64,000 bases of DNA from positions 1,435,001-1,499,000 of the forward strand of contig NZ_PZZM01000001.1 in the NCBI RefSeq assembly GCF_003046175.1. The letters are read 5' to 3'. The notes under the pieces are model-generated. The model worked only from the letters and a program-made list of their open reading frames with translations, searched no databases and was not told where the DNA came from. This document shows, piece by piece, positions 17,334 to 29,896 of this stretch. Every line of letters starts with the position of its first letter. The stretch's first letter is position 1. Origin of the DNA: Bosea sp. 124. Its GTDB lineage: Bacteria; Pseudomonadota; Alphaproteobacteria; Rhizobiales; Beijerinckiaceae. The position numbers were made by a program, and so were the translations under genes.

Positions 17334-18731
17334 TCAAATATGGATCGCATGCCCGAGCGCCTTGAGCGCCGCCTCCTGGAAACCCTCGCCTTGTGTCGGA
17401 TGGGCGTGGATCGTGCCGGCGATATCCTCCAGCGTTGCACCCATCTCGATGGCGAGCCCGAAGGCGGTCGAGAGTTCGGAGACGCCCGAGCCCACCGCCT
17501 GGATGCCGAGGACGAGCTGCGTCTGCGCCTGGGCGACGATGCGGACGAAGCCCTGCTCGCCGTCGCGCGTCATCGCCCGGCCATTGGCCGCGAAGGGAAA
17601 CTGGCCGATCCTGACATCGAGTCCGGCGCGCTTCGCTTCGTCCGGCGACAGGCCGGCCGAGACGATCTCGGGATCGGTGAAGCAGATCGCCGGGATGCAG
17701 CGCTTGTCCCAGGCACGCGAGAGGCCCGCCGCGATCTCGGCGACCATCTCGCCCTGCGCCATGGCGCGATGGGCCAGCATCGGCTCGCCTGTGACGTCGC
17801 CGATGGCATGGATGCCGCGCATCGAGGTCTCGCACTGGTCGCCGATGCGGATAAAGCGGCCATCCATGTCGAGCACCAGTTCGTCGAGACCGAGACCAGC
17901 GGTAGCCGGCGCCCGGCCAACGGTGACGAGGATTTTGTCGGCAGCGATGCGGCGCTCCTGGCCGTCCGCTGTCTCGACCAGCAAGGCGTCGCCCTTCGGC
18001 GCTGCGCCCCGCGCCTTGGCGCCAAGCAGGACTTCGATGCCGAGCAAAGTCAGCCGCTTCGCGACCGGCCCGGTCATATCGGCATCATAGAGCGGCAGGA
18101 TGCGACCTTGAGCCTCGACGATCGTGACCTGGCTGCCGAGCTTGGCGAAGGCAATGCCGAGTTCCAGCCCGATATAACCGCCGCCGACGACGGCTAGGCG
18201 CCTGGGCACCTCGGCCAGCGCCAGCGCCTCCGTCGAGGAGATCACCGGGCCACCGAAGGGCAGAAAGGGCAATTCGACCGGGATCGAGCCGGTCGCGATG
18301 ACGATCCTCTCGGCGCGGATCACCTTCGGGCCGGTCTCGGTCTCGACCACCACCGTCTTGCCGTCGCGGAAGCGAGCGCGGCCATGGACGATCTTGACCT
18401 TGGCCTTGCGCAGAAGCGCCGCGACGCCGTTGTTGAGGCGCGCGACGATGCCGTCCTTCCAGGCGACGGCCTTGCCGAAATCGAGCGCCGGTGCGCCCGC
18501 CGTCAGTCCAAAGGGCGTCTTGCCAGCGGCGGCATGGGCCACCTTCTCGAACTCCTCGGCGACGTGGATCATCGCCTTGGAGGGGATGCAGCCGACATTC
18601 AGGCAGGTGCCGCCGAGCTTGCCACTCTCGACGATGACGGTGTCGAGGCCGAGCTGGCCGGCCCGGATGGCGCAGACATAGCCGCCGGGACCGGCGCCGA
18701 TGACGAGCAGCTTGCAGATGATCTCGGTCAT
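17334..18731 (-). CDS. lpdA: Dihydrolipoyl dehydrogenase (E3) of the branched-chain 2-oxoacid dehydrogenase complex
   Basis: This 465-residue FAD-dependent E3 reoxidises the lipoyl groups of the adjacent E2, reducing NAD. It has the FAD motif VIGAGPGGYVCAIRAGQLG, the redox disulfide in GGTCLNVGCIPSK (two Cys spaced CxxxxC), a second Rossmann GGGYIGLELG for NAD, and a C-terminal HAHPTQGE segment supplying the His-Glu pair. The ATG at 18731 has GGAG at 7 nt. It is the last gene of the leftward bkd operon. A palindromic repeat lies in the 174-bp gap to bkdB. Being bkd-linked, it is probably the Val-specific isoform (LpdV). Confidence 0.93.
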   Translation of the reverse strand: MTEIICKLLVIGAGPGGYVCAIRAGQLGLDTVIVESGKLGGTCLNVGCIPSKAMIHVAEEFEKVAHAAAGKTPFGLTAGAPALDFGKAVAWKDGIVARLNNGVAALLRKAKVKIVHGRARFRDGKTVVVETETGPKVIRAERIVIATGSIPVELPFLPFGGPVISSTEALALAEVPRRLAVVGGGYIGLELGIAFAKLGSQVTIVEAQGRILPLYDADMTGPVAKRLTLLGIEVLLGAKARGAAPKGDALLVETADGQERRIAADKILVTVGRAPATAGLGLDELVLDMDGRFIRIGDQCETSMRGIHAIGDVTGEPMLAHRAMAQGEMVAEIAAGLSRAWDKRCIPAICFTDPEIVSAGLSPDEAKRAGLDVRIGQFPFAANGRAMTRDGEQGFVRIVAQAQTQLVLGIQAVGSGVSELSTAFGLAIEMGATLEDIAGTIHAHPTQGEGFQEAALKALGHAIHI

Positions 18732-18778
18732 GACTGAACTCCGCCCCAAACGGGGAAGGCTTTCCTTTTGAAACGCGC

Positions 18779-18872
18779 CATCGTCCCGGGCGACCGGAGG
18801 GAGACCCAGGACCCATTCCGGAACGGCTCAGGAATGGATCCCGGATCTCCGCTTCGCTGCGTCCGAGATGAC
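18779..18872. repeat. Palindromic intergenic repeat, family B, copy 2
   Basis: About 94 bp between the E2 and E3 genes run from CATCGTCCCGGGCGAC to CCGAGATGAC. The inner stem is GGACCCATTCC paired with GGAATGGATCC with one mismatch. It lies within the bkd operon and is transcribed with it. Confidence 0.65.
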
Positions 18873-18905
18873 CCGGTAAAGGTGATGAGGACAGACACCA
18901 TCGCC

Positions 18906-20231
18906 TCAGACATCGATGAACAGCGTGGCCGGGTTCTCAAGCAACTCCTTGAGCCGCTGCACGAAGACGGCCGCGTCCCAACCGTCGACGACGCGATGGT
19001 CGAAGCTGGAGGACAGGTTCATCATCTTACGCGGGACGAAGGTGGTACCGTCCCAGACCGGACGCACCATCATCTTGTTGACGCCGACGATGGCGACCTC
19101 GGGATGGTTGATGACCGGCGTCGTTGCAATGCCGCCCATCGCGCCAAGCGAGGTGATGGTGATGGTCGAGCCGGTGAGTTCGTCGCGGGTCGCGGTGCCG
19201 TCGCGGGCGCGATCGGCAATGCGGTTGAGTTCAACGGCGCAGCCCCAGATGTCACGCGCCTCGGCATGTTTGACCACCGGCACCATCAGCCCGCCCGGCG
19301 TCTGCGTCGCGATACCGAGATGAATGCCGGCATGCTGGCGCACGATGCCGGCCTCGTCGTCATAGAGCGCGTTCAGGTTGGGCTGCTCGGCCAGCGCCTT
19401 GACCATGGCGCGCATCAGGAACGGCAGCAGCGTCAGCTTCGGCCGCTCGGGCGTCGGCTTCCGGTTCAACGTCGCGCGCAAATCCTCGAGCGGGTTGACA
19501 TTCACCTCCTCGACGATGGTGATGTGCGGGATACGCGCTTTCGACAGCGCCATCTTCTCGGCGATCTTGCGCCTGAGACCGACGATCTTGACCTCGGTGA
19601 CACCGCTCTTCTCGGCAAGGCCGGGCGTGTGGCCCGGCTCCGGGCCGCGAAGCAGGAAGGCGTCGATGTCCTCGTGCAGGATGCGGCTCGCGGGCCCCGT
19701 GCCCGTGACCTGGCGCAGATCGATGCCGGCTTCGCGCGCCTTGAGACGCACCGCCGGCGAGGCCAGCGGCTTGTCGCCAGGCGCACGGCGCGGGGCAGCC
19801 GGTGCCTGAGGCGCCGCCGTCGCGATCGCCCGCGTGGGCTTAGGGACTGTCATGGCGCGGGGCGGCTCGGGGGAAGCCGCGGCCTTGGCCGATTCCGGCA
19901 CGGCGGATTTCGGCGTCTCGGATTTCGACTCGGCCTGCTCTGGCTCCGGCTCGGCCGTATCAGCCGGCGGTTCTTCGGCTCCGGCCTCGCCGGCGATCTT
20001 GAGCTTCACGATCGCCGAACCGATCGCAACCGTGTCGCCAACCTCGGCGCCGATCCAGGTGACCTCGCCGTCGACGGGCGCCGGAATCTCGACCGTCGCC
20101 TTGTCGGTCATCACGGCGGCAAGCAGGTCATCCTCGCGGATGATGTCGCCGACCTTGACGTGCCACTCGACCAGTTCGGCCTCGGCGATGCCTTCGCCGA
20201 CATCGGGAAGCTTGATGATGCGCTCGGCCAT
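18906..20231 (-). CDS. bkdB: Branched-chain 2-oxoacid dehydrogenase E2 (lipoamide acyltransferase)
   Basis: This 441-residue E2 core protein has an N-terminal lipoyl domain (residues 1-78, lipoyl-lysine in [10 protein letters not shown]), an Ala/Pro/Glu-rich linker (about 80-135), a peripheral-subunit-binding domain (about 150-185; [20 protein letters not shown]), and a catalytic acyltransferase domain ending with [12 protein letters not shown], which carries the active His and Asp. It transfers branched-chain acyl groups to CoA. The ATG at 20231 overlaps the E1-beta stop by one base (TGATG), so it is translationally coupled. Confidence 0.93.
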
Positions 20232-21247
20232 CAGCGGCTCTCCATGATCTCGGCAAGCGCCTGGCCGACGCGGGCCGGGCCGGGGAAATAGGCCCACTCC
20301 TGGGCATGGGGATAAGGCGTATCCCAGCCTGCGACACGCCGGACCGGCGCCTCGAGATGATAGAAGCAGGTCTCCTGAACGAGCGCGGCCAGCTCGGCGC
20401 CAAAACCCGACGTCAGCGTCGCCTCGTGCAGCACCATGCAGCGCCCGGTCTTGGCGACGGAGGCGGTGATCGTGTCGAGGTCGAGCGGAACGAGGCTGCG
20501 CAGATCGATCACTTCGGCGTCAATGCCGGTCTCCTGCGCCACGGCCTCGGCGACATGCACCATGGTGCCATAGGTGACGATGGTGCAGGCCGAACCCTCG
20601 CGTCGGATCGCGGCCTTGCCGAGCGGCAGCGCGAAATGGCCATCGGGCACCTCGCCGAGCTCATGCTTCGACCAGGGCGTCACCGGCCGGTCGTGATGGC
20701 CGTCGAAGGGACCATTATAGAGGCGCTTGGGCTCCAGGAAGATCACAGGGTCCGGATCCTCGATCGCGGCGATCAGCAGCCCCTTGGCGTCGTAGGGGTT
20801 GGAGGGCACCACGGTCTTCAGCCCCGAGACGTGGGTGAAGAGGGCCTCGGGGCTCTGGCTGTGGGTCTGGCCGCCGAAGATGCCGCCGCCGGTCGGCATG
20901 CGGATCACGATCGGGCAGGTGAAGTCGCCATTCGAGCGATAGCGCAGCCGGGCGGCCTCGGAGACGATCTGGTCATAGGCCGGATACATGTAGTCGGCGA
21001 ACTGGATCTCGATGCAGGGCCGCAGGCCATAGGCAGCCATGCCGATCGCCGTGCCGACGATGCCGGCCTCGCTGATCGGTGCGTCGAAACAGCGGTTGAC
21101 GCCGTATTTCTGCTGCAGCCCATGGGTGCAGCGGAAGACGCCGCCGAAAAAGCCCACATCCTCGCCATAGACCACGACATTCTCGTCGCGCCCCATCGAG
21201 ACGTCCATGGCGGAGCGGATCGCCTCGATCATCGTCATGCGTGGCAT
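20231..21247 (-). CDS. bkdA2: Branched-chain 2-oxoacid dehydrogenase E1 beta subunit
   Basis: This 338-residue transketolase-like beta subunit contains the pyrimidine-binding motif [11 protein letters not shown] (about residues 28-38), the alternating-site segment [39 protein letters not shown] and a C-terminal transketolase C domain. The ATG at 21247 has GGAGG at 9 nt. Longer in-frame readings run into the palindromic repeat upstream and are not real. It pairs with the E1 alpha product encoded 163 bp upstream. Confidence 0.93.
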
Positions 21248-21286
21248 GGTCAGCGGCCTCCGAAAAAGAGAGGGGCGGACCACATC

Positions 21287-21377
21287 GTCATGGTCGGGCT
21301 TGTCCCGACCATCCACGTCTTCCTCTGGCGAGGGCCGTGTTCAAGACATGGGTGCTCGCCACAAGGGCGAGCATGAC
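21287..21377. repeat. Palindromic intergenic repeat, family A, copy 1
   Basis: A 91-bp element begins GTCATGGTCGGGCTTGTCCC and ends GGGCGAGCATGAC. It contains two local hairpins (GGTCGGG/CCCGACC with loop CTTGT; GCTCGCC/GGCGAGC with loop ACAAG) and terminal GTCATG/CATGAC repeats. It lies between the two E1 genes. Copies 2 and 3 are at 42948 and 56487. Confidence 0.8.
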
Positions 21378-21410
21378 GGCGGAGGTTCATGTGCCAGGAA
21401 GCCATGCGTC

Positions 21411-22661
<1,251 letters not shown>

Positions 22662-22890: not shown

Positions 22891-23391
22891 GTGATATCGC
22901 GAAGCAGACGAGGAGACGAGCCCGATCAGACCGATCTGCGGATTCTCTCCGCCCTGCAGGAAGACGGCCGGCTGACCACCAATGCGCTGGCGGAGAAGGT
23001 CGGGCTGTCACCCTCGCCGTGCTGGACGCGGGTGAAGCGGCTGGAGGAAAGCGGCGCGATCGAAAAATATGTCGCCGTGCTCGACCAGAAGGTGCTCGGC
23101 TTCAACAATGTCGTCTTCGTCGAGATCACCCTCGACAAGCATGACGACAAGATCCTCGACCATTTCGGCGAGGCGCTGACGCGCATCCCCGAGGTGGTCG
23201 AGGCCTATCTGGTCACCGGCGAATACGACTATCTCGTCAAGGTCGTGGTCAGCGGCACCGACCATTACGAGCGCTTCCTGCGCGAGATGCTCTACCGCAT
23301 CCCCGGCATCCGCCAGACCCGCACGACCTTCGGCCTCAGGACGCTGAAACGGGCGATCTCGATCGACCCGCTGAAGATGCCGAAGCCTTGA
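22891..23391 (+). CDS. bkdR: Lrp/AsnC-family regulator of the bkd operon
   Basis: This 166-residue feast/famine regulator has an N-terminal helix-turn-helix (DQTDLRILSALQEDGRL and NALAEKVGLSPSPCWTRVKRL, residues about 12-52) and a C-terminal RAM/AsnC ligand domain with VVEAYLVTGEYDYLVKV. The start is GTG at 22891 with AGGA at 9 nt. It is divergent from bkdA1, exactly as in Pseudomonas, where BkdR activates bkd in response to branched-chain amino acids. It probably also controls its own gene. Confidence 0.9.
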   Translation: MISRSRRGDEPDQTDLRILSALQEDGRLTTNALAEKVGLSPSPCWTRVKRLEESGAIEKYVAVLDQKVLGFNNVVFVEITLDKHDDKILDHFGEALTRIPEVVEAYLVTGEYDYLVKVVVSGTDHYERFLREMLYRIPGIRQTRTTFGLRTLKRAISIDPLKMPKP

Positions 23392-23548: not shown

Positions 23549-25624
23549 TCAGTCGAGCAACGCGGCCTCGCCAGCCAGCACAAAACCATCGTCCTGCGCC
23601 GCCATCGCGACAGCCGCCTCGAGCTCCGGCCCGGCCGAGGCGTGGATGATGAAGAGCGCCTCGCCTGCCGTCACGTCGTCGCCAACGCGGCGCAGCAGGT
23701 CGATGCCGGCGCCCTTGTCGAAGGGCGCCCCGGCGCGTCGCGCGATACCGGCGATGCACCAGCCGTCGATCTCGCCGATGCGGCCGGGCCGAAGCGCCTT
23801 CACCGTATGGGTCAGAGCGGCCGGCTTCGGCACGATCTCCCGCCGCCCCTGCGCGGCGACGATTGCGTCCAACGCCATGCGCGCCGCGCCCGAATCCAGG
23901 AGTTCGGCAGCGCGCGCCCGGCCGCGTTCTGGCGTCGCGACGGCGGGGTCCCAGGACAGGATGCGCCCGGCAAAGGCAAGCGCCTTCTCACGCAGGTCGG
24001 CGGGGGCCTCAGGCTGGCCTTCCAGCACCCAGAGCACGTCGCGGACCTCGAGCGCCGGGCCGATGCCGCGCCCGATCGGACCGGCGCCGCAGGTCGCGAC
24101 GGCCTCGACATGCAGGCCGACCGAGCTCCCGACCGTCTCGAACAGGCGGCCCAACTCTTCGGCTTCGGCCTGGCTGCGCAGCTTCGCCCGCCGGCCGTAG
24201 GGCAGATCGACGGCGACATGGGTCGAGCCCGCCGTCAGCTTCTTCGAGATGATCGAAGCCACCGACCAGCGATTGGAATCGATGCCCAGCGGGCGCGTGA
24301 TCGCGTTCATCACATCGTCCACGGCGGAGTGGTTGAGACGCCCGTTCCAGGCGATGCAAGCGCGGGCCTCTGCAACCGTGCGGCGGACATCGTCGACCGT
24401 GAGATCGACCTTCGCCAGAACCTCCATCGCATCGGCAGTGCCGGCGGCCGAGGTGATCGCACGCGACGAGGTCTTGGGCATGGCGAGGCCATGGGCCGCG
24501 ACGATCGGCGCCACGATCAGCGTGATCCGGCTGCCGGGAATGCCGCCCATCGAATGCTTGTCGACGACGATCGGCTCGTTCCAGCGCAGGGGCGTCGAGA
24601 AGGAAGCGCGGACGCTGGCCAACGCGCCAACCTCGGCATCGCTCAGCGAACGCGTGGCGGCAACGAGAAACGCCGAGATTTCGCCTTCGGGGTAGCGCCC
24701 CTCGACGATGTCGCGCAGCAGCATGGCGTATTCGGACGCGCCGAGCTCATGGCCTTGAATCTTGGCGCGAAGCGCATCGCGGCTGTGCTGCGGCGGGGTG
24801 CGCGTCAGCGTGATCTCGCTGTTTTCCGGCAGGCCGAGTTGCGCGAAGGCCTCGCGCGACAGGCCGATCTCGTCCGGCGCCAGCAGCCAGCCCGGCTCGA
24901 CGACATTGACGCGGGCGCGGATGCTGCGGCGCTGCCCGCTCGCATCGGCCTGTCCGGCCACGTCGACCTTGCCCGGCCCGTCGAAGTCCTCGACGCCGAG
25001 CATGCTGTCGCGCGGCAGATAGGCGATGTTGTCGCGCCAGGCGTCGATCGACACGGGCTTCAGCGCGAGCCGGCGCGTGGCGGCGTCGATCGCAGCGAGG
25101 AAATGCTCGATGCCCTCCTCGATCGCGCCGTTGTTCTCGACGACCAGCGTCTCGATCCCGGCCGGCAGTTGCGGCGGCCGGCGCGCCAACCTTGCCGCGA
25201 TGTCGTCCGCCGTCTCGCGACCGCGCGAGGCCAGCCGGGCGGCAAGGATTTCGGGCGAGGCGGTCACGTTGATGATGATCAGGCGCGGGACCGCGCCGGC
25301 CAGCGTCTCCAGCACGCCGCGCGAGCCATTGGCGACGATGTGCCGGCCCGCCACCAGTTCATCGCGCAGCGAGGCCCGCAGGCCGTAATGCAGGCCATGG
25401 GCGTTCCAGGAGACGAGCAGCCCGCCGGAGGCGGCGAGCGCTGCGAAACCCTGATCGTCGATCGCCTCGTGATCCTCGCCACCGGCATCGGCCGGCCTGG
25501 TGATCAGGCGCCGGGCAAAGCCGAAGCGACCGCCATCGGCCAGCGCCTTGCGGGCGCCGTCCATCAGCGTGTCCTTGCCGGCGCCGCTCGGGCCGACGAC
25601 GACGAAGAGGATGCCTGGCCGCAT
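23549..25624 (-). CDS. Fusion protein: PhnN-like ribose-1,5-bisphosphokinase + thymidine/AMP-phosphorylase-like domain
   Basis: This 691-residue two-enzyme polypeptide has a PhnN-type kinase at residues 1-185: Walker A GPSGAGKDT (11-19), the RRLITRPAD segment, and HGLHYG. This family makes PRPP from ribose 1,5-bisphosphate and ATP. From about residue 190 it is a type-2 thymidine-phosphorylase-like protein: an N-terminal barrel-like region, then DKHSMGGIPGSR (phosphate binding), TSSRAITSAAGTADAMEVL and a C-terminal pyrimidine-phosphorylase domain. Archaeal AMP phosphorylases of this superfamily release ribose 1,5-bisphosphate. It starts 15 nt after nadC. No phosphonate genes are nearby. The reading frame is continuous and both halves are full length, so this is a true fusion rather than a sequencing join. 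Confidence 0.88.
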   Translation of the reverse strand: MRPGILFVVVGPSGAGKDTLMDGARKALADGGRFGFARRLITRPADAGGEDHEAIDDQGFAALAASGGLLVSWNAHGLHYGLRASLRDELVAGRHIVANGSRGVLETLAGAVPRLIIINVTASPEILAARLASRGRETADDIAARLARRPPQLPAGIETLVVENNGAIEEGIEHFLAAIDAATRRLALKPVSIDAWRDNIAYLPRDSMLGVEDFDGPGKVDVAGQADASGQRRSIRARVNVVEPGWLLAPDEIGLSREAFAQLGLPENSEITLTRTPPQHSRDALRAKIQGHELGASEYAMLLRDIVEGRYPEGEISAFLVAATRSLSDAEVGALASVRASFSTPLRWNEPIVVDKHSMGGIPGSRITLIVAPIVAAHGLAMPKTSSRAITSAAGTADAMEVLAKVDLTVDDVRRTVAEARACIAWNGRLNHSAVDDVMNAITRPLGIDSNRWSVASIISKKLTAGSTHVAVDLPYGRRAKLRSQAEAEELGRLFETVGSSVGLHVEAVATCGAGPIGRGIGPALEVRDVLWVLEGQPEAPADLREKALAFAGRILSWDPAVATPERGRARAAELLDSGAARMALDAIVAAQGRREIVPKPAALTHTVKALRPGRIGEIDGWCIAGIARRAGAPFDKGAGIDLLRRVGDDVTAGEALFIIHASAGPELEAAVAMAAQDDGFVLAGEAALLD

Positions 25625-25639
25625 GGTTCCGGTGTTGCC

Positions 25640-26473
25640 TCAGGCCTCGTCGAGCCCGATGTCGACGGCGGGCGCCGACTGGGTGATCTTGCTGGTCGAG
25701 ATATAGTCGACGCCGGTCTCGGCGATGGCGCGGATGGTCTCGTAGCGAATACCGCCCGAGGCCTCGACCTTGGCGCGGCCCGCGACATAGGCCACCGCCT
25801 CCTTCATCTCCGGCACCGGCATGTTGTCGAGCATGATGACGTCGGCGCCGGCCGCGACCGCATCGCGGACCTGCTCCATCCGGTCGCATTCGACCTCGAT
25901 TTTGGTCAGCACCGGCAGCCTTTTGCGGGCGCGCTCGACTGCCTGGGCGATGCCGCCGCAGACCGCGATGTGGTTGTCCTTGATCATCACGCCGTTATCG
26001 AGGCCGAGGCGGTGGTTGAGGCCGCCACCGCAGGCGACCGCATGCTTCTCCAGCATGCGCAGGCCGGGCGTGGTCTTGCGGGTGTCGATCAGACGCGCCG
26101 AGGTGCCCTTGATAATGTCGACATAGCGCGCCGTCTCGGTCGCGATGCCGGACAGGCGCTGCACGATGTTCAGTGCCGTGCGCTCGGCGGTCAGAATGCC
26201 CTGCGCCGGCCCCTCGACCAGGATCAGGGTCGCGCCCTTCTCGACGCGGTCGCCATCGGCAGCCTCGACCTTGACCGACAGCGCCGGCTCGTAGCGCCGG
26301 AACACGGCGGCGGCGACATCGATCCCCGCCAGCACCATCGGCTCGCGGGCATTCATCCGGAAGCAGCCCGTCTCGGTCGGCTCGATCATGAGCTGGACGG
26401 TCAGGTCGCAGGAGCCGATGTCCTCCCTCAGCCAGAGGTCGATCAGCCGCTCGGTCGCGAAACGATCATACAT
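25640..26473 (-). CDS. nadC: Nicotinate-nucleotide pyrophosphorylase (carboxylating), quinolinate phosphoribosyltransferase
   Basis: This 277-residue type II phosphoribosyltransferase converts quinolinate and PRPP to nicotinate mononucleotide, CO2 and PPi. Family segments are ERTALNIVQRLSGIAT, DTRKTTPGLRMLEKHAV, GGGLNHRLGLDNGVMIKDNH and the C-terminal VEASGGI and GVDYISTSKIT. The order is N-terminal open-faced sandwich followed by a barrel. nadA and nadB are not adjacent, as they would be in a de novo nad operon. Instead it is coupled to a gene predicted to make PRPP. A ModD-like role is a weaker alternative. Confidence 0.9.
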   Translation of the reverse strand: MYDRFATERLIDLWLREDIGSCDLTVQLMIEPTETGCFRMNAREPMVLAGIDVAAAVFRRYEPALSVKVEAADGDRVEKGATLILVEGPAQGILTAERTALNIVQRLSGIATETARYVDIIKGTSARLIDTRKTTPGLRMLEKHAVACGGGLNHRLGLDNGVMIKDNHIAVCGGIAQAVERARKRLPVLTKIEVECDRMEQVRDAVAAGADVIMLDNMPVPEMKEAVAYVAGRAKVEASGGIRYETIRAIAETGVDYISTSKITQSAPAVDIGLDEA

Positions 26474-26948
26474 GCTTCAGCCCCTGACACGCGCTCCCGC
26501 AGCCTTGGCGCGGGCTTCGCCAGGGAGAGCGAATAGCATGGACGGCCCGATTTGATTACCGTTTGTGTACCAACGATGCGGAGAGCGCTGCAGACTGTCA
26601 AGCAAGGAATAGATCAGGGGGCCGCCGTTTTCGGGCTGACAGTGCAACCATGCCTAAATCCGGGCCAAACCCATGGTTGCAGCGCTTATTTCGCAAGCAA
26701 TTGCTGCACTGCAAGCGGTCAGATTGAGCGAAGACCAGCATTGACAAGCCATATGCATACCAACAAACTTCGCCTCGTGCTGCGCAGGGCTTTGCCTGAC
26801 AAACAAGACATGCACGCGACGAAGCGGCTTGAAGCCGCCGGGGATAGACAGCTACGGCAGATCGTCGGGCGCAGGTTGCGACCGACGAAGTATGGGTTTG
26901 CGGCCCGTCATGCGGGCCATCTCTCGACACAGGCCTGGGAGGGCAATC
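26474..26948. other. 475-bp divergent intergenic region between nadC and the TRAP transporter
   Basis: This region is lower in GC than its surroundings and has no credible gene. It holds a perfect 10-bp inverted repeat (26643-26681), the 10-bp palindrome AGCAATTGCT (26696-26705) and a perfect -35 hexamer TTGACA near 26740 pointing toward the TRAP genes, without a clear -10. It should contain both divergent promoters and operator(s) for an unlinked regulator. Confidence 0.6.
26643..26681. promoter_or_regulatory. Perfect 10-bp inverted repeat upstream of nadC
   Basis: TGCAACCATG (26643-26652) and CATGGTTGCA (26672-26681) are exact reverse complements with a 19-nt spacer. The repeat lies 170 bp upstream of nadC and 268 bp upstream of the TAXI gene. 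It may be a dimeric operator or a transcript hairpin; there is no T-run, so it is not an intrinsic terminator. Confidence 0.5.
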
Positions 26949-27932
26949 ATGAAGAGACTGGCTATCGCGTCCATCGTGGCGGCATCGCTCGGACTCTGCG
27001 CAGGCCTCAGCCTGGCGCAGACCGCTCCGACCAAGAAGATCACCCTGACCGGCGGCTCGGTCGGCGGCGCCTGGAGCGCCATCGGCAATGCGATCGGCGA
27101 GACGATCCGGCGTGAATCGCCCGGCGCCGCCTTCGGCTACGAGCCCGGCCGCGAGGCCGCCAATATCCAGCTCGTCTCGACCGGCAAGGTCGAACTCGGC
27201 ATCGCCCATGCCCAGCTCATCAAGCGGGCGCAGGCGGGCGAAGATCCGTTCAAGGCGCCCGTCACCAACCTCAAGGCCATCGCGCTGATCGATCCGCAGG
27301 CCGCGGTGCAGATCCTCGTCCGCGAGGATTCCGGCATCGACAGCTTCGAGAGCATCCTGGCCGCCAAGAAGCCGGTGCGCATCGCGCTCAACCAGCGTGG
27401 CACGCTGATGGCGGTGACCGGCGAGGAGGTCTTCAAGGTCTATGGCATCACCGCCAAGGACATCGAGGGCTGGGGCGGGCGCATCCAACATGTCGACTAC
27501 AATGCCGGCCTGGAGATGATGAAGAACGGCCAGGTCGACATCATCATCAACATGCTCGCCTTTCCCTCCGGCCAGATCAACAGCGCGACCCGCGAGATGA
27601 AGGTCAAGATGCTGGGCATCAGCCCGGAGGCGACCGCCAAGCTCGGCGCCCAGCTCGGCACCGCGGCGATCACGGTTCCAGCCGGCACCTATCCGTTCCA
27701 GCCGCAGGCGATCCCAACCGTCACCGGCAGCGTCGTGCTATTCGCGGCCAGCGAGATGAAGAACGAGGATGCGGCGGCGATCGTCGAGGGGATGCTGAAG
27801 AACTTCGACTATCTCAAGCAGGCCCATGCCACGATGGCGCGCCTCGAGCCCGTCAACCTCACCCAGACCGCGCCGCTAGCGCTCCATCCGGGCGCGGAGA
27901 TGGCCTATCGGAAGGCCGGCCTGATCAAGTGA
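26949..27932 (+). CDS. TAXI-family TRAP transporter solute-binding protein
   Basis: This 327-residue periplasmic receptor of the TAXI class has a signal peptide (KRLAIASIVAASLGLCAGL, cleavage at LSLAQ near residue 24). The mature start KKITLTGGSVGGAWSAIGNAIGE is the family's first strand and loop, and LVSTGKVELGIAHAQ is also typical. The ATG at 26949 has GGGAGG at 6 nt. It feeds the fused TRAP permease 23 nt downstream. TAXI receptors bind organic acids or glutamate-like ligands; the ligand is not readable here. Confidence 0.9.
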   Translation: MKRLAIASIVAASLGLCAGLSLAQTAPTKKITLTGGSVGGAWSAIGNAIGETIRRESPGAAFGYEPGREAANIQLVSTGKVELGIAHAQLIKRAQAGEDPFKAPVTNLKAIALIDPQAAVQILVREDSGIDSFESILAAKKPVRIALNQRGTLMAVTGEEVFKVYGITAKDIEGWGGRIQHVDYNAGLEMMKNGQVDIIINMLAFPSGQINSATREMKVKMLGISPEATAKLGAQLGTAAITVPAGTYPFQPQAIPTVTGSVVLFAASEMKNEDAAAIVEGMLKNFDYLKQAHATMARLEPVNLTQTAPLALHPGAEMAYRKAGLIK

Positions 27933-27955: not shown

Positions 27956-29896
27956 ATGCCGATTTCGCGAGGTGCCCCGATGCCGCTCCTGCTGAAGCTC
28001 CTCGCGCCGGGACAGTCGCGCCGGCTCGACGCCCCCGAGCAGTGGACCGTCCACATCGTCGGCGTCGCGGCCGGCCTGCTGCTACTGGCGATGTCCTTCG
28101 GCTGGTATGTCAACCGCGAGATCGCGCTGTTCCTCTTCCTCGGAGCAGTCCTGTCGCTGGCCTTCCTGACCACGACCGCCAATCCGCTGCGACAGACCGG
28201 CCGCTCCTGGCCGGCCTGGGGTTTGGTCGCACTGTCGGTCGCCTCCTGCGGCTATTTCATCGCGATGCATCCGGTGCACGAGTTGCGCCTGCCGATGATC
28301 GACGAGCTCTCGACCCTCGACATCGCCGCCTCGATGGTCCTGATCGCGCTGGTGATGGAAGCGACGCGACGCTGCATCGGGATGATCCTCGTCGTCCTCG
28401 TCTCGACGTTCCTCGCTTATGCGATCTTCGGCAACAGGCTGACGGGCTCCTTCGCCCATCGCGGTTTCAGCACGCAGGAGATCGTCGACCATCTCGTCTT
28501 TTCGACCAACGGCCTGTTCGGCCCGGCGCTGGAGGTGGCGGCCTTCCTCGTCGTCGTCTTCGTCATCTTCGGCGCGCTGCTGGACCGGATCGGCGGCGCC
28601 GACTTCTTCTATGACGTCGCCAACAGCCTCGTCGGCAAGCAGGTCGGCGGGGCGAGCAAGGTCGCGGTCGTCTCGTCGGGCCTCTACGGCTCGATCTCGG
28701 GATCGCCGACGGCCGACGTCGTCACCACCGGCTCCTTCAGCATCCCGCTGATGATCCGGACCGGCGTCAGCCGCACCTATGCCGGCGCCATCGAATCCGC
28801 GGCATCGACGGGCGGTGCGCTGCTGCCGCCGGTGATGGGCTCGGCGGCCTTCCTGATGACCGACTTCACCGGCATTCCCTATGCGACGATCGCCCTGTCG
28901 GCGCTGGTGCCTGCCCTGCTCTACTACCAGTCGGTCTTCCTTGCCGCGCATTTCCGGGCGCATCGGGATGGCCTCCAGCCGATGTCGCATGGCGAGGCTC
29001 CCTCGATCCTGACCGTGCTGCGGCGCGACTGGCTGTATCTGGTTCCGATCGGCCTTCTGGTCTGGGGCGTGCTCAGTCTCAACCGGCCGTCCTTCGCCGG
29101 TGCCATCGCCTGCGCCGCGCTGCTGCCCGTCGCCCTGCTGCGGCAGAAGAACCCGGTTCAGCTCGTCAAGACGCTGTTCTTCGGTCTCAGCGACGGCATG
29201 CGCGGCATGATCGGCGTCGGTGTCGCCTGCGCCATCGCCGGGCTCGTCGTCGGCACGCTCTCGATGACCGACCTCACCGGCAAGATCAGCTCGGGCCTGT
29301 TCCACATGGCCGGCGGCAGCCCGATCCTGACGATCATCGTGGCTGCCTTCGTCATCATCGTGCTCGGCATGGGCATGCCGACGCCGGCGGTCTATGCGCT
29401 CTCGGCCGTGCTGGCGGCCCCGGCGCTGATCGCGCTCGGCATCGCGGTGCTGCCGGCGCATCTCTTCATCGTCTATATCGCCTCGATGTCGGCGATCACG
29501 CCGCCGGTCGCCGTTGCGGCCTTCGCGGCGGCCTCGATCGCCAAGGCCAATCCGGTGATGATCGCGCTCGTCGCCTGCCGGATCGCGATGGTCGCCTTCA
29601 TCCTGCCCTTCGTCTTCATGTACCAGCCCGCGCTGCTCATGATCGGTTCGCTCTGGCAGATCATCGCGGCCGTCGGAGCGGTGGCGCTCGGGGTGCTGGC
29701 GCTCAATGCCGCGTTCGAGGGCTACTACATCGTCATGCTCGACCTGACGAAGCGCGCCCTGCTCTTTGCAGCCGGCATCGGCCTGTTCCTGCCGTTCCAG
29801 AATTCACAGATCGCGGGAGCCGTCCTGCTGGCTGCGGTGACGGCATGGCTCTGGACCGGCCGCCGGGCCGCGCAGACGGCGCCCCGAATCGCGTAG
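27956..29896 (+). CDS. TAXI-type TRAP transporter fused permease (small + large subunits)
   Basis: This 646-residue inner-membrane protein has about 16-18 hydrophobic helices. The N-terminal about 200 residues correspond to the small (Q-like) subunit and the rest to the large (M-like) DctM-type subunit. The conserved segments SGLYGSISGSPTADVVTTGSFSIP and ESAASTGGALLPPVMGSAAF are each read in short stretches. A second symmetric motif, MGMPTPAVYAL and AITPPVAVAAF, lies in the C-terminal half. It uses a Na+ gradient to import the receptor's ligand. The ATG at 27956 has GGAG at 7 nt. Confidence 0.92.
   Translation: MPISRGAPMPLLLKLLAPGQSRRLDAPEQWTVHIVGVAAGLLLLAMSFGWYVNREIALFLFLGAVLSLAFLTTTANPLRQTGRSWPAWGLVALSVASCGYFIAMHPVHELRLPMIDELSTLDIAASMVLIALVMEATRRCIGMILVVLVSTFLAYAIFGNRLTGSFAHRGFSTQEIVDHLVFSTNGLFGPALEVAAFLVVVFVIFGALLDRIGGADFFYDVANSLVGKQVGGASKVAVVSSGLYGSISGSPTADVVTTGSFSIPLMIRTGVSRTYAGAIESAASTGGALLPPVMGSAAFLMTDFTGIPYATIALSALVPALLYYQSVFLAAHFRAHRDGLQPMSHGEAPSILTVLRRDWLYLVPIGLLVWGVLSLNRPSFAGAIACAALLPVALLRQKNPVQLVKTLFFGLSDGMRGMIGVGVACAIAGLVVGTLSMTDLTGKISSGLFHMAGGSPILTIIVAAFVIIVLGMGMPTPAVYALSAVLAAPALIALGIAVLPAHLFIVYIASMSAITPPVAVAAFAAASIAKANPVMIALVACRIAMVAFILPFVFMYQPALLMIGSLWQIIAAVGAVALGVLALNAAFEGYYIVMLDLTKRALLFAAGIGLFLPFQNSQIAGAVLLAAVTAWLWTGRRAAQTAPRIA

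Follow-up and report, generated by a model that had tools for sequence, protein, structure and literature searches.

The described systems closest to the one considered here are an archaeal nucleotide phosphorylase, a kinase of E. coli, the pathways of nicotinate degradation, and a gene neighborhood that is already in print. The structures 4ga4, 4ga5, and 4ga6 of the Protein Data Bank (PDB) are presumably those of the adenosine monophosphate (AMP) phosphorylase of Thermococcus kodakarensis, and we take the family models TIGR02322 and PRK10078 to represent E. coli PhnN, the ribose 1,5-bisphosphokinase, which converts ribose 1,5-bisphosphate and adenosine triphosphate (ATP) to phosphoribosyl pyrophosphate (PRPP) and adenosine diphosphate (ADP). 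NadC, quinolinate phosphoribosyltransferase, converts quinolinate and PRPP to nicotinate mononucleotide (NaMN), CO2, and pyrophosphate (PPi). To our knowledge, nicotinate degradation pathways contain no nadC or PRPP step, and no NaMN phosphorylase has been known before. Here, we describe a gene of Bosea sp. 124 that joins a PhnN-type kinase to a type-2 thymidine (AMP)-phosphorylase-like protein in one chain, next to a paralogue of nadC; it lies in a stretch of 64,000 nucleotides (contig NZ_PZZM01000001.1, positions 1,435,001 to 1,499,000), hereafter the window. We propose that the two genes encode a new catabolic entry, in which quinolinate would be decarboxylated to nicotinate by a closed PRPP/ribose 1,5-bisphosphate cycle run by the NadC paralogue and a bifunctional NaMN phosphorylase–ribose 1,5-bisphosphokinase, a reading to which we assign a probability of roughly 0.55. 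The nadC-phnN-bug27 loci of Variovorax and Jezberella (Sorci et al. 2024, PMC11452294) are of the same kind and include the TctC-type protein Bug27, which binds quinolinate at submicromolar level and whose gene adjoins nadC and “phnN” in Variovorax. In the passages concerned, that paper speaks of phnN only, with no mention of a phosphorylase half, and interprets the link as NAD (nicotinamide adenine dinucleotide) biosynthesis. The record of Variovorax SRS16 reads nadC, phnN (717 amino acids), TctC.

The fusion occupies positions 23549..25624 of the window on the minus strand as a single open reading frame of 691 codons, 15 nt from nadC (25640..26473, minus strand, 277 amino acids), which lies upstream on the same strand. 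A preliminary description of this DNA had recognized this arrangement, a Walker A motif, and two intact domains, and our analysis agrees on each. The PhnN domain (residues 1–185; 25070..25624, minus strand) carries GPSGAGKDT at residues 11–19 and scores above the NCBIfam cut-off of TIGR02322 (186.5 vs 156 bits, residues 4–180), though below that of PRK10078 (106.1 vs 153). The second half scores well above the cut-off of PRK04350, “thymidine phosphorylase” (597.4 vs 434; residues 186–685), and comprises an N-terminal domain (residues 186–282; 24779..25069, minus strand), at whose first residue the PRK04350 match begins, and a catalytic core (residues 283–691; 23552..24778, minus strand). Classical thymidine phosphorylase was rejected as its identity, both TIGR02643 (123.7 vs 570.7) and PRK05820 (161.3 vs 269) being missed. 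The neighboring nadC passes TIGR00078 (330.6 vs 198.4), and residues 8–274 of its 277 align with the solved NadC 1x1o. In five pairs of near relatives, the ratio of nonsynonymous to synonymous substitution rates (dN/dS) was 0.165–0.279 for the kinase half and 0.127–0.163 for the phosphorylase half, and purifying selection thus acts on both. The AlphaFold2 model has a mean predicted local distance difference test score (pLDDT) of 93.6, with 5 of 691 residues below 70. With full-length homologues in 22/37 Bosea genomes, low dN/dS, and high pLDDT, the fusion is neither a chance product nor a pseudogene. The closest characterized fold to the predicted structure is that of archaeal AMP phosphorylase, the alignment to 4ga5 starting at model residue 184; the Foldseek/VIA lists for the full-length model are filled by the phosphorylase half and cover the fold matches of that half. 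The fusion shares the archaeal fold but differs in the kinase joined to it, and nothing here points to an isomerase or RuBisCO route for it.

On the observed gene structure, family membership, conservation, neighborhood, and co-occurrence we build the following scheme. The neighboring NadC would convert quinolinate and PRPP to NaMN, CO2, and PPi; the phosphorylase half would split NaMN with phosphate into nicotinate and ribose 1,5-bisphosphate; and the PhnN half, judged by family and genetics, would return ribose 1,5-bisphosphate and ATP to PRPP and ADP. The net reaction would be quinolinate, phosphate, and ATP to nicotinate, CO2, PPi, and ADP, with PRPP acting catalytically, as the handle by which quinolinate loses its 2-carboxylate. 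Since NadC spends one PRPP per quinolinate, degradative use would drain pentose unless the ribose were returned, and the fusion would combine just the two activities that return it, a nucleoside monophosphate (NMP)-type phosphorylase and a kinase, at the cost of one ATP. The nicotinate formed could enter nicotinate degradation, or NAD by way of nicotinate phosphoribosyltransferase. We consider it probable that the fusion is the PRPP-regenerating enzyme of a quinolinate-using module, of which we infer the NaMN substrate, the direction, and the role; NaMN made by the neighboring NadC appears the more likely substrate of the phosphorylase half.

The preliminary description had made its proposal depend on a recurrent link to PRPP-using genes, and the link does recur. 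A nadC gene lies upstream of the fusion on the same strand in all 54 fusion loci compared, at a distance of 10–2193 nt (median 24; no more than 100 nt in 47), and the fusion-linked type is present in 43/43 carriers searched outside Bosea, with 65–79% identity to the NadC of the window. In Cupriavidus and a congener, an opposite-strand gene of about 205–223 amino acids stands between nadC and the fusion (L084:5091-5762 and L177:8425-9042, both minus strand). Further nadC copies, only 42–45% identical to that of the window, were found in 39 of the 43 genomes, and nadA in 41. Because the fusion-linked gene is a separate paralogue in nadA-bearing genomes, most of them with a second nadC, its place, judged by gene content, is outside ordinary de novo NAD synthesis. 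Within Bosea, the fusion-linked nadC (72–100% identity) is present in 28/61 genomes, and the fusion was seen in 27 of the 28; in the other (G083), a contig end falls inside the PhnN part. A different nadC type (46–51%) occurs in seven other Bosea, all with nadA, and 26/61 gave no nadC match. As nadA was found in only 10/61, including 3 of the 28 with the fusion-linked nadC, and so many have no nadC match, most Bosea species probably need an external supply of nicotinate or quinolinate to make NAD. The genome of the window has one nadC match, the fusion-linked one, together with a nicotinate phosphoribosyltransferase-family gene, and gave no match to nadA in the search across the 61 Bosea genomes. 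In Bosea, mostly without nadA, it is possible that outside quinolinate is used for NAD as well.

Genes of nicotinate catabolism recur around the nadC-fusion pair. One locus (L153, genome G612) holds a 6-hydroxynicotinate 3-monooxygenase NicC (5eow, E 1.3e-170) with NicA-like, NicB-like, XdhC-like, MarR, and MFS genes, and another (L177, genome G849, of the same genus as the Cupriavidus) holds NicX (7cn3, E 3.8e-122), NicD (4l0c “Deformylase”, E 2.2e-91), and NicE (maleate isomerase 4fq7, E 1.2e-116). The module of one Bosea clade adjoins a gene whose relatives (60–80% identical) are annotated as 6-hydroxynicotinate reductase in several plasmid records, and the reductase also lies near the module in a Comamonadaceae metagenome-assembled genome (MAG). 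Two different nicotinate pathways therefore recur beside the same nadC-fusion core. These identities were taken from solved structures and record annotation, since the NCBIfam scans assigned no more than broad families to the NicB-, NicC-, NicD-, and NicE-like proteins and none to the NicX-like protein or the reductase. Within the 11–30 kb examined per locus, one or more genes of nicotinate catabolism (NicA, B, C, X, D, or E, or the reductase with its companions) lie near 21/55 family loci (20/54 fusions and L083, described below), against 1/38 control loci (Fisher p 4e-5), where L218 contributed the single match, to a NicA-like protein. Restricting the count to the five most specific genes (NicC, NicX, NicD, NicE, and the reductase) gives 18/55 and 0/38. 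The controls were 18 Bosea phn loci, two of them only 9 kb long, and 20 stretches picked arbitrarily from Cupriavidus-family carriers. A cluster with 6-hydroxynicotinate reductase is described, in the relevant passage of one paper, as serving nicotinate degradation (PMC3511419).

The association extends from neighborhoods to whole genomes. The 6-hydroxynicotinate reductase is found in 27/28 Bosea with the module (within 12 kb of it in 13 of the 28) and in 8/33 without (p 3e-9), and NicX (E < 1e-150) in 38/40 carriers of the Cupriavidus family, compared with 67/309 of its other genomes (p 3e-20). Within one genus, NicX is present in 23/23 carriers and in 11 of 18 genomes without the fusion (p 0.001), the 18 being those without it visible in the fusion and NicX search listings, counted by hand. 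Transporters, of four kinds that seem interchangeable, add to this picture. Near the nadC-fusion pair, the 55 loci show TAXI-family solute-binding proteins in 13, TRAP (tripartite ATP-independent periplasmic) permeases in 14, TctC/Bug proteins in 10, NMT1-type proteins in 9, and MFS transporters in 6. The closest PDB match of the Cupriavidus Bug protein is Bug27 (E 5.7e-108). In the window, a TAXI-family TRAP solute-binding protein (26829..27932, plus strand; TIGR02122, 148.6 bits; the true start may lie further in) diverges from nadC and is followed by its partner, a TRAP transporter fused permease (27956..29896, plus strand), to which related permeases occur in family loci. In Pacificitalea, the TAXI–TRAP genes stand in line with nadC and the fusion, the permease being annotated “TRAP transporter fused permease subunit”. 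The TAXI protein of the window is a candidate for pyridine-carboxylate uptake.

The phosphorylase half also carries a signature of its own. At 11 positions, the 76 fusions compared are nearly fixed for residues different from those of 37 stand-alone relatives (L083 and the DeoA row were left out): R339, N427, H432, and N440 are found in 76/76 fusions and W453 in 74/76, with other residues in the 37. Aligned to E. coli thymidine phosphorylase (numbers converted by hand), N440 corresponds to Tyr168 and W453 to Leu182, next to Ile183, while S457 and K461 preserve Ser186 and Lys190 and the counterpart of Arg171 is not cleanly aligned. In the passages that treat the base site, Arg171, Ser186, and Lys190 are base contacts (PMC5238616), and Tyr168 and Ile183 were placed at the base by docking (PMC6863536). 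The comparison lends support to a changed base site in the fusion clade.

Several observations weigh against the catabolic scheme. The second half falls below the cut-off of the AMP phosphorylase model TIGR03327 (AMP_phos; 382.7 vs 535), and at positions 358 and 393, two of the 11, archaeal AMP phosphorylase shares the residue of the fusion; the positions of the changed residues come from sequence alignment alone. In the stretches examined, 34/55 loci, including that of the window, show no nicotinate gene, and in the genome of the window (a single contig of 5.47 Mb, with the window at 1.435–1.499 Mb) the fusion lies at 1.46 Mb and the 6-hydroxynicotinate reductase (L198) at 4.78 Mb, among its usual companion genes (labeled by eye). 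Nicotinate degraders without the module exist, as the 8/33 Bosea and 67/309 Cupriavidus-family genomes attest. The query genes for the neighborhood counts came from fusion loci, so that four loci match themselves, the identity thresholds were chosen by the analyst, and the p values ignore shared ancestry, related genomes leading significance to be overstated.

The fusion is found in both alpha- and betaproteobacteria. A full-length copy was found in 22/37 Bosea genomes searched, in 0/24 genomes from other families of the same order, in 12/248 genomes of Bosea's own family (one of the 12 outside the genus), and in 5/398 genomes across the phylum, including G694 (another family of the same order) and G612 and G555 (two families of other classes). 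In the family of G555, that of Cupriavidus, 40/349 genomes carry the fusion, and the PhnN part is in frame in the 38 whose loci were inspected (all except G887 and G912). Proteins of named Bosea relatives are 87–88% identical to that of the window, and other named carriers include Microvirga massiliensis, a Comamonadaceae MAG, Cupriavidus yeoncheonensis, a Paraburkholderia MAG, and Burkholderia sp., with plasmid-borne copies in Variovorax sp. SRS16, Pacificitalea manganoxidans, and Paraburkholderia sp. 22B1P. Public records annotate the gene as “phosphonate metabolism protein PhnN” or “phnN”. Most fusions of the Cupriavidus family are without the N-terminal phosphorylase domain, and the two halves are separated by 4–31 residues in short fusions and 85–130 in long ones.

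In a tree of 115 phosphorylase cores, 76 fusions and L083 group together (Shimodaira–Hasegawa-like approximate likelihood ratio test, SH-aLRT, 93), apart from 37 stand-alone relatives. The tree was made by a quick method and drawn with a midpoint root; it has long rows for L153 and L193, and the fusion branch, at 93, is not starred. It took in 76 of 79 distinct fusion cores, identical cores and those with fewer than 340 aligned residues having been dropped. The tree makes a single origin of the fusion likely but does not prove it. In it, Bosea sequences occupy three positions, one with Microvirga and G088 and another next to G694, a genome from a different family; this pattern argues for spread by horizontal transfer. 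L083 (5968-7527, plus strand; Comamonadaceae) is a phosphorylase half of the fusion clade with no PhnN or nadC in the 13 kb covered and with NicB-like, XdhC-like, and Bug genes as neighbors; it is possibly a deletion product of the fusion.

The preliminary description had further held that phn genes are lacking and that a dedicated role without any phosphonate pathway is likely. There are none beside the fusion in the window, but the genome has a carbon–phosphorus (C–P) lyase cluster elsewhere, so that neither phn genes nor a phosphonate pathway are lacking from it, and the kinase probably also serves phosphonate use. In that cluster, phnC, D, E, G, H, K, L, and M and two accessory phn genes are above cut-offs, phnI and phnJ are present too, and the sole PhnJ match of the genome lies within it at 2.66 Mb; no phnN was found there, and the fusion is the only PhnN found in that genome. 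In Bosea relatives without the fusion, phnN sits inside the phn cluster. PhnJ is present in 59/61 Bosea, and each of the 37 searched for PhnN keeps one. A separate phnN is absent from 14 of the 22 fusion-bearing Bosea (all 14 with PhnJ) and present in the other 8, compared with 14/14 of the others (Fisher p = 9e-5, kinship being ignored and G018, whose only PhnN is a fusion remnant, set apart). As the fusion is the sole PhnN in many C–P lyase-bearing Bosea, the simplest reading of these genomes is that its kinase half functions as a ribose 1,5-bisphosphokinase able to replace phnN, and it probably also serves phosphonate use in the lineages that lost the cluster phnN. It resembles E. coli PhnN in passing the TIGR02322 equivalog cut-off and in seemingly replacing the missing phnN, and is unlike it in lying outside the phn operon, in being joined to a phosphorylase, and in not reaching the PRK10078 cut-off. 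In G018, the PhnN part stands alone (L025:3536-4135, minus strand; 200 amino acids, 84% identical) and still adjoins the Lrp-type regulator gene found next to the fusion; this genome has lost the phosphorylase half and nadC, and its phn cluster lacks phnN, a case in which the two functions have come apart naturally. One could go further and take the kinase half to be just the relocated phnN of the C–P lyase pathway, with the phosphorylase half and nadC as passengers or unrelated; the phn cluster without phnN, the loss of separate phnN, and the remnant in G018 would fit. This is very improbable, since a separate phnN is also kept in 8/22 fusion-bearing Bosea, both halves are under purifying selection, and phosphonate use leaves unexplained why nadC is retained beside the fusion across families and classes.

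Two further explanations keep the phosphorylase half at work on a different substrate. The preliminary description had proposed that AMP, cytidine monophosphate, or uridine monophosphate is cleaved to ribose 1,5-bisphosphate, from which PhnN makes PRPP for NadC to use for NaMN and hence NAD. The chemical sequence it outlined, phosphorolysis to ribose 1,5-bisphosphate, then PRPP, then NadC, is plausible; its direction, NMP salvage to NAD, fits poorly and seems unlikely to us, given the nadC paralogue kept with nadA in 41/43 and with a second nadC in 39/43 carriers outside Bosea, and the catabolic neighbors in 21/55 loci. The archaeal AMP phosphorylase fold, the nadC adjacent in 54/54 loci, and a window genome in which, with no nadA match, quinolinate would be the NAD precursor all count in its favor, against which that genome also has its nicotinate phosphoribosyltransferase-family gene and the fusion departs from both AMP phosphorylase and the stand-alone relatives at several positions near the base site. 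Another explanation, which we regard as improbable, is that the phosphorylase half works on a different pyridine nucleotide or on a nucleoside, such as nicotinamide mononucleotide or nicotinate riboside, in a module for general pyridine nucleotide turnover rather than quinolinate. The nicotinate genes near 21/55 loci would agree with this as well; yet all 54 loci compared keep a dedicated NadC, which matches solved NadC enzymes along its length and needs quinolinate and PRPP, and phosphorolysis of a nucleoside gives ribose 1-phosphate, which is not the substrate of PhnN. We favor the catabolic reading, quinolinate to nicotinate with PRPP recycled, because it accounts together for the nadC paralogue in nadA-bearing genomes, the nicotinate neighbors, the co-occurrence, the Bug27-like transporter, the clade-specific residues, and the retention of PhnN.

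Among other neighbors in the window, downstream of the fusion, are an Lrp/AsnC-type regulator from the family scan (22891-23391, plus strand) and a 2-oxoacid dehydrogenase operon labeled by eye (17334-22643, minus strand), both of which stay beside the fusion in near Bosea relatives. An FRG-domain protein (PF08867) lies near the nadC-fusion pair in 11/55 loci, all betaproteobacterial or of the Cupriavidus family (for example L154:11528-12304, minus strand, and L182, L183, L184, L190, and L192), with weaker relatives (29–31%) in L081, L152, and L158. At L169:8571-12702 (plus strand), a stand-alone type-2 phosphorylase precedes a PRPP-synthetase paralogue (PRK07199, 371 vs 322 bits) and an MBL-fold/beta-CASP protein, a single case that hints that the wider phosphorylase family also acts near PRPP; in the plasmid records, an overlapping MBL-fold annotation recurs.

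The component families are known, and the nadC-phnN-bug27 neighborhood is already in print (PMC11452294); as far as we searched, neither the catabolic context nor the interpretation as PRPP cycling has been described before. A literature search, to which most subscription papers were beyond reach, found no paper on a PhnN–thymidine phosphorylase fusion and none under the names NaMN phosphorylase or quinolinate decarboxylase; among the titles and abstract openings of the matches listed, there was no bacterial pathway of quinolinate degradation and nothing describing a PRPP/ribose 1,5-bisphosphate cycle. If the proposal is true, the fusion would be the first NaMN phosphorylase known to us, and the cell would regenerate PRPP from ribose 1,5-bisphosphate, using it as a recycled carrier that is not consumed. 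The recurrent fused gene at present called “phosphonate metabolism protein PhnN” would gain a function, a bacterial protein related to the type-2 “thymidine phosphorylases” would gain a testable nucleotide substrate, and quinolinate-binding Bug proteins would be tied to a catabolic pathway. The proposal would also explain the second nadC of many proteobacteria, and gene-function prediction would change in dozens of genomes, where such a “nadC” would belong to pyridine degradation and not to NAD synthesis.

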